Source: Phycisphaeraceae bacterium (lineage in GTDB: Bacteria; Planctomycetota; Phycisphaerae; Phycisphaerales; Zrk34). From it: DNA of 40,439 bases. The stretch spans positions 1 to 40,439 of the forward strand of contig JANQHD010000026.1 of assembly GCA_028282805.1 (NCBI GenBank). The letters are read 5' to 3'. The translations under genes were made by a program, and so were the position numbers. This document shows, piece by piece, positions 24,192 through 24,936 of this stretch (position 1 is its first letter; each line of letters begins with the position of its first letter). The notes beneath the pieces were generated by a model. The model saw nothing but the letters and a program-made list of their open reading frames with translations. It made no database searches and was not told where the DNA came from.

Positions 24192-24260
24192 CAAAGCCCG
24201 CCCATGGCAAAGCCCACCCATGGCCATGGGTGGGCTTTGAGGTGCGGCGGGTGGGCTTTG
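24192..24260. repeat. REP-like palindrome cluster upstream of the RAYT gene
   Basis: A perfect palindrome made of AAAGCCCACCCATGG and its reverse complement occupies 24209-24238, extended to 32 bp by a flanking C and G. A left half-copy CAAAGCCCGCCCATGG (24192-24207) and a right half-copy CGGGTGGGCTTTG (24248-24260) surround it and can pair with each other, giving a nested cruciform. Confidence 0.85.
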
Positions 24261-24287
24261 AGGCGAGGCGAATGAAAGGGGGTTTAC

Positions 24288-24884
24288 ATGTCGAGTTCTT
24301 GGCACGGTTGGTATCACGCGGTCGCCAACACGTACGGCACGTGGCTGCCGGGCGATCTGCGGGGGTGGCGCAGCCGGGGGCATCGCGTCCACGTGGACGG
24401 GGATTACAAGCGACCGCCGCCGGAGGGGGCTTACGATGCGCTGCACGCGCGATCGAAACGGCTGATGAAAACGGGCGCGGTCGTGTTGACGCAAGAGATG
24501 CGCGAGACCGTCTGCGATGCGCTCGTGGAGAAGCTGCGGGCGATGGGCGTCGAGGTGGCGCGGCTGAGCGTTGGGGGGTGTCACTGCCATTGCCTGATGC
24601 GCATCCAAAGCCCACGCATGGCCATGCGTGGGCTTTGTGAGGGTAACATGCTGACCGACGGGCGGAACCCGTTGCCGAGGCACGTGCTGGGGGTGGCGCG
24701 GAAGCACGCGTCGCACGTGTTGCGCCAGCGCGGGCTCAAAGCGCCGGGGGCTTTGTGGGCGAAGCGGCCGAAGGTGGTGGTGGTCGAAAGCGAAGGGCAC
24801 TTCGAGTACCTGCGAGACATTTACATACCGAATCATGCGCGCGAAGGCGCGGTGGTTTGGCCGAGCACGGTCGATGCGCATTGA
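24288..24884 (+). CDS. REP-associated tyrosine transposase (RAYT, IS200-like)
   Basis: A 198-aa Y1 HUH-endonuclease-like protein. WHGWYHAVANTYGTWLPGD and HVDGDYKRPPPEGAYDAL resemble transposase-like proteins common in planctomycetes. The metal-binding HUH motif is His99-Cys100-His101 (GGCHCHCL), and Tyr174 or Tyr179 in HFEYLRDIY is the candidate nucleophile. Residues 107-117 (QSPRMAMRGLC) are encoded entirely by a 32-bp palindrome between the HUH motif and the LPRHVLGVARKHASHVLR helix. Relatives I recall lack this segment, so it appears to be an in-frame palindrome insertion. ATG at 24288 has GGGGG at 24278-24282. Whether the protein is active is unknown. Confidence 0.78.
   Translation: MSSSWHGWYHAVANTYGTWLPGDLRGWRSRGHRVHVDGDYKRPPPEGAYDALHARSKRLMKTGAVVLTQEMRETVCDALVEKLRAMGVEVARLSVGGCHCHCLMRIQSPRMAMRGLCEGNMLTDGRNPLPRHVLGVARKHASHVLRQRGLKAPGALWAKRPKVVVVESEGHFEYLRDIYIPNHAREGAVVWPSTVDAH
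24606..24637. repeat. REP-like palindrome inside the RAYT coding sequence
   Basis: A perfect 32-bp palindrome, arms CAAAGCCCACGCATGG and reverse complement. It differs from the flanking copies by a C to G change in one arm matched by G to C in the other, so the palindrome is preserved. It introduces no stop codon in the transposase frame. Confidence 0.85.
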
Positions 24885-24885
24885 T

Positions 24886-24915
24886 AAAGCCCACCCATGG
24901 CCATGGGTGGGCTTT
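24886..24915. repeat. REP-like palindrome downstream of the RAYT gene
   Basis: A perfect 30-bp palindrome identical to 24209-24238, beginning two bases after the RAYT stop codon (24882-24884). It lies between the convergent RAYT and atpD genes and could serve as a terminator for both, although the T-tracts are only three bases long. Confidence 0.85.
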
Positions 24916-24936
24916 GTGCTTCGTGTGGTGGTGCGC

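Follow-up and report, generated by a model that had tools for sequence, protein, structure and literature searches.

In-frame copies of a dispersed palindrome in RAYT-like transposase genes of Phycisphaerales

The gene and its three palindromes

The window analysed here is the whole 40,439-nt stretch at positions 1 to 40,439 of contig JANQHD010000026.1 from a Phycisphaeraceae bacterium (GCA_028282805.1). Its forward strand carries, at 24288..24884, an open reading frame encoding 198 amino acids plus stop, whose product was assigned through an AlphaFold model and matches to solved structures as a RAYT-like transposase of the HUH/Y1 type. The model (pLDDT 87.6) displays the Y1 HUH nuclease fold; its best solved matches are IS200/IS605 TnpA chains (Z about 12), and E. 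coli TnpA_REP (4er8) is matched with a Z of 10.8. The HUH motif H99-C100-H101 (24582..24590, forward strand) and the catalytic motif Y179---H183 (24822..24836, forward strand) are both present in the protein, as is W157. H101 is found in 100/100 homologues and H99 in 99/100, and the tyrosine followed by a histidine four residues on (Y---H) occurs in all 100. The window protein itself matched no family model at E 0.1, Y1_Tnp scoring weakly (E 0.2); among 49 relatives, 31 matched the NCBIfam model REP_Tyr_transpos ('REP-associated tyrosine transposase', best 1.4e-10) and 15 matched Pfam Y1_Tnp. There is one close copy of the gene in its own genome, the next best being 40% identical. In the broad sense of the term, the locus has the features of a RAYT (TnpA_REP): the Y1 fold of its product carries a single catalytic Tyr as well as the HUH motif, and the gene, itself in low copy, is bordered by a palindrome with dispersed copies elsewhere in the genome. 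It encodes a RAYT-like HUH/Y1 nuclease of the TnpA_REP type, and the initial annotation, which had named it as such, is supported by the fold, the motifs and the flanking dispersed palindrome.

As Y---H is absent among the signatures of Quentin et al. 2018 (Y---Q, Y---NP and Y----Q), the family is regarded, on its sequence motifs, as a putative separate RAYT-like class outside the signatures of that classification. Members were found mainly in the Phycisphaerales (Planctomycetota), where 83/400 genomes of the order matched at E 1e-12; a stricter search (E 1e-40) of 392 genomes taken from the phylum gave matches in 11, 10 of them Phycisphaerales. When genome contigs were searched for homologues, the alignment as query gave matches and a single-protein query gave none.

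Three perfect palindromes lie at the locus, and they are the only ones in the whole window with arms of at least 8 bp; the chance expectation for the window is 1.8e-4 perfect palindromes with arms of at least 15 bp. The upstream copy (32 bp, 24208-24239) ends 48 bp before the start codon, the downstream copy (30 bp, 24886-24915) starts 1 bp after the stop codon, and the third, CAAAGCCCACGCATGGCCATGCGTGGGCTTTG (32 bp, 24606-24637, forward strand), lies inside the gene. The first base of the internal copy opens codon 107, five codons past H99-C-H101, and the copy is read without a stop as codons 107-117, contributing QSPRMAMRGLC. A single symmetrical difference, ACGC/GCGT in place of ACCC/GGGT, sets it apart from the flanking copies and is compensated on both arms. 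One arm, with one mismatch, is repeated directly before the upstream palindrome (24193-24207, forward strand), and a degenerate half copy with three mismatches lies at 24245-24259 on the opposite strand. The initial annotation had reported palindromes before, after and inside the gene with half copies upstream, an internal copy that is stop-free and set on a codon boundary, and a difference that keeps the palindrome; each of these observations was confirmed. In the structural model the residues encoded by the internal palindrome lie in a surface loop, of lower model confidence, that joins the HUH strand (β3, 99-106) to helix C (129-147).

Duplication of one arm directly upstream of a full copy is seen at four sites (24193-24207 in the window, L186, L192 and L194), and these duplicated arms are perhaps a trace of the copying mechanism.

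The palindrome family in its own and other genomes

The in-gene palindrome belongs, as had been supposed, to a family dispersed in the genome (about 30 related copies). It is neither rare nor unrelated elsewhere: 35 strict palindromes of the form AAGCCCAS...STGGGCTT are present in the genome, and the 30 sites that were read fall into the core sub-types ACCC, ACGC, ACGG and AGGC, with matching arms in each. As further perfect or near-perfect ACGC copies exist in the genome (C46:70317 and C41:61710), the internal copy is a member of a REP sub-family, and mutation in place is not needed to explain its core. A home-made coding model, applied to stretches of the genome, placed one of the 30 examined sites inside a predicted gene, this being the RAYT copy, and the remainder in intergenic DNA. 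At loci L001-L007 and L184-L203 of the same genome, most of the dispersed palindromes lie 10-60 bp past a stop codon, and many are centred between two convergent genes; they resemble bidirectional terminators that share a core.

Between genomes, the median number of strict palindromes was 23 in 15 RAYT-positive genomes versus 0 in 18 RAYT-negative ones (Mann-Whitney p = 2e-5, uncorrected for kinship), the genome sets being hand-picked and the counts using one strict pattern that misses other types; G017, for example, with flanks AAAGCGG..., scores 0. An example of the type found in a relative is GCCCAGGGATTGCAATCCCTGGGC. In G008, whose assembly is fragmented and 88% complete, there are 19 palindromes of the CATGGCCATG type and no detected RAYT. 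The GT[AG]G foot tetranucleotide was not found in the flanks of the 30 own-genome copies, which display only a weak outward G then T (38/60 and 31/60). As there is no conserved GTAG foot, recognition of the palindrome by the window protein is assumed from their association.

The genomic positions invite the view that the palindromes are bidirectional transcription terminators, the in-gene copy being a terminator that attenuates or silences its gene. Their placement past stop codons and between convergent genes, and the AAAGCC...GGCTTT shape, fit such a role, and RAYT-free G001 contains a few hairpins of the same shape with unrelated cores. This explanation is nevertheless improbable. Exact cores are common to many copies per genome and abundance tracks the RAYT; the internal copy is followed only by TTT and lies within translated sequence; and the genes with internal copies are under purifying selection. 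Indeed, the dN/dS ratios of three palindrome-bearing species pairs are 0.20, 0.23 and 0.20, similar to those of pairs lacking the palindrome (0.14-0.30). With catalytic residues and reading frame intact, and dN/dS about 0.2 in palindrome-bearing relatives, silencing of the gene by its own palindrome, which the initial annotation had offered as one outcome, is unlikely. The purifying selection in relatives suggests that the protein stays functional.

Internal and flanking copies change together

In most homologues the loop between the HUH strand and helix C is short (HFHLLARFPDHNPRKWIGLAK), and the alignment reveals an enlarged loop in others. An intact gene with a palindrome in the same loop is found in 17 of the 100 homologues in the tree (L009, which is the window gene, L015, L016, L024, L025, L029, L040, L043, L062, L068, L076, L079, L080, L081, L085, L149 and L164). 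The window segment has about 18 residues more than the short-loop majority and no extra length versus its nearest long-loop homologues; in L017, L018, L019, L021, L022, L023, L041 and L061 the stretch before DGRDP.PRH is just as long and is not palindromic. The proposal that residues 107-119 are a unique insertion does not survive this comparison, as the loop is palindrome-filled in at least 17 homologues and equally long without a palindrome in the nearest. The internal copies start 8-18 codons past the first His of HxH and use two reading frames, AGC CCA and AAG CCC. A site-specific target is ruled out by this spread of starts over about 10 codons and by the use of two frames. The alignment and the model together show that the loop between the HUH strand and helix C is tolerant of many kinds of insertion.

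Several loci depart from this pattern. Three further RAYT genes, L144 (L144/L178), L153 and L174, have a loop palindrome and a frame broken soon after it. Either several arm fragments or a palindrome interrupted by about 90 nt expand the loop to 60-90 residues at L028, L183 and L119; these three, with L096 and L097, were left out of the loop counts as expanded or odd. At L124, L121, L043 and L068 the coding sequence runs into the downstream palindrome, from which part of the C-terminal tail is translated. Upstream copies in the family are typically no more than about 65 bp from the start codon.

On the tree, presence of the internal palindrome is scattered; parsimony requires 9 changes, and well-supported (starred) branches make at least 2 of them unavoidable. 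It is missing from 83/100 homologues, including many that are well flanked (L017, L027, L061 and L069-L072), and at L042 an internal copy was gained or lost between close relatives. No empty-site near relative was found for the window's own gene; the region beside atpD was compared in related genomes for an empty cassette site, and gene order beyond atpD is not conserved.

Where flanking copies exist, each internal palindrome resembles those of its own locus. Mean identity to own-locus flanks is 0.90, an average in which L081 and L144 are kept although neither has a flanking copy, compared with 0.65 to the flanks of other loci, and none of 20,000 random pairings reached the observed sum. Within the clade formed by L024, L025, L029, L040, L043, L062 and L068, none of the 5,040 possible pairings other than the true one does so. 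The internal and a flanking copy are identical over 27-30 nt at L040, L043, L068, L085 and L164, and at L025 the same imperfection is present in all three copies. L043 has the CGCCGT type, the commonest among the copies listed for that genome, inside the gene and downstream of it, but the GGATT type upstream. The internal and flanking copies therefore turn over together, and the own-flank matching, including that at L025 and L043, argues that replacement of the REP population extends to the internal copies. Over the history of the Phycisphaerales, internal copies have repeatedly come and gone and, chiefly, been exchanged for others in concert with the flanks of their own locus.

These data bear on two further explanations. 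If the encoded residues (SPxMAxxGL or KPTxxxRGL) were kept for their own sake, for example in DNA recognition, the position of the loop beside the HUH strand and the KPT...RGL pattern in most main-clade members would be readily understood. It is very unlikely, however, that the loop is such a protein feature, as equally good homologues lack these residues, two reading frames are in use, any change in the residues is matched in the flanking non-coding palindromes, and the loop is a low-confidence part of the model. Chance or an assembly artefact would be an extremely improbable source of the pattern. Several of the source genomes are metagenome assemblies, but the arrangement recurs in independent assemblies, among them CP050848 (L040/L104), which is a complete chromosome, and G060 (L164), a genome of 4.6 Mb in one contig, and only about 7e-7 perfect 32-bp palindromes are expected in a gene of such length.

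Origin of the internal copy and comparison with known systems

The explanation that we consider probable is that cognate REPs are captured in a permissive loop and kept in step with their flanks by REP-for-REP replacement. Most likely, the RAYT, or replication past its hairpins, would copy REPs on single-stranded DNA, strongly favouring nearby sites, and this bias would cause the RAYT's own gene to be hit and re-hit. Copies that break the frame would be lost and in-frame copies in the loop tolerated, so that no benefit of the internal copy would be required. Ordinary RecA-dependent conversion would probably need longer matches than arms of 9-15 bp, and an exchange driven by the enzyme or by replication is therefore favoured. 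The replacement of one REP by another is itself deduced from the pattern of sequences at these loci.

It is also conceivable, though rather unlikely, that the internal palindrome is maintained for regulation: by binding this hairpin, in its gene or in the mRNA, the RAYT would limit its own synthesis or activity, and the internal copy would have to follow every change of REP specificity. The self-targeting or self-regulating transposase that the initial annotation had offered as the alternative to silencing is likewise conceivable. The co-variation of internal with cognate flanking copies, the pairing kept within coding sequence and the typical placement of upstream copies close to the start codon are all in keeping with regulation, as is the greater conservation of the palindrome between species than of the surrounding gene. 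In L029 and L164 the palindrome is 27/27 identical while the gene is 73% identical (p = 2e-4), which shows that it is either homogenised or selected. The many homologues without an internal copy, often with good flanking palindromes, the variation in position and frame, and gain or loss between close relatives (L042) are, however, evidence against regulation. A related and similarly doubtful possibility is that the RAYT gene carries a copy of the palindrome that it currently recognises, rewritten at each change of family, as a self-recognition element. On the same tentative footing, this element would serve autoregulation or the matching of enzyme to repeat, in the same loop of at least two distant RAYT classes.

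The probable explanation, capture and replacement of cognate REPs, can be set against known systems. The gene is not that of an IS200/IS605 insertion sequence, with which it shares the Y1 HUH fold and hairpin borders: those elements are multi-copy, near identical and Y---Q, whereas the window gene is single-copy and Y---H. Membership of TnpA_Y1 class 3 (Planctomycetes and others; Y----Q, CnGA foot) is ruled out by the Y---H signature and the lack of such a foot, and the palindromes are not canonical REPs of the GTAG super-family as they have no GT[AG]G at the hairpin foot. The E. coli TnpA_REP/REPtron (4er8) is alike in its Y1 fold, its single-copy gene bordered by palindromes and its dispersed cognate repeats, but has a GTAG foot, an imperfect hairpin and Asn at Y+4, with no internal copy reported. 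Intragenic REPs in other genes and the Rickettsia palindromic elements (De Nocera et al. 2013, PMC3733652) are likewise small palindromic repeats in frame in protein genes, where flexible parts tolerate them; they occur in many unrelated genes, in contrast to the restriction to the cognate transposase gene among the sites examined here.

The closest parallel is TnpA_REP subclass 2.4 (Bertels group 4), for which the text of Quentin et al. 2018 (PMC6006769) describes in-frame REPs at the homologous site of the transposase's own gene. The initial annotation knew of no such case, and in this respect it is corrected: on the report of Quentin et al. 2018, an in-frame REP in its own transposase gene is of a kind already known, reported once before in other bacteria. 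Subclass 2.4, described there as having a Y---NP (YIxNNP) signature, long REPs and GT[AG]G feet and as hosted mainly by Cyanobacteria and Bacteroidetes, resembles the window gene in the location of the internal palindrome, which here lies between the strand at 99-106 and the helix at 129-147. The present family differs in its Y---H signature, its footless near-perfect palindromes and its Phycisphaerales hosts. Joint change of internal and flanking copies is not reported in the text of that paper. The additions made here are that another class of RAYT captures REPs in the homologous loop, together with a quantitative match of internal to flanking copies, and evidence for recurrent replacement. 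Both the spread of REPs and the function of RAYTs are open questions, and on these a REP in coding sequence, overwritten time and again by the cognate type then current, provides an in-frame record of REP replacement; the internal REP also makes sensing by the RAYT of its own gene cheaply testable by synonymous recoding.
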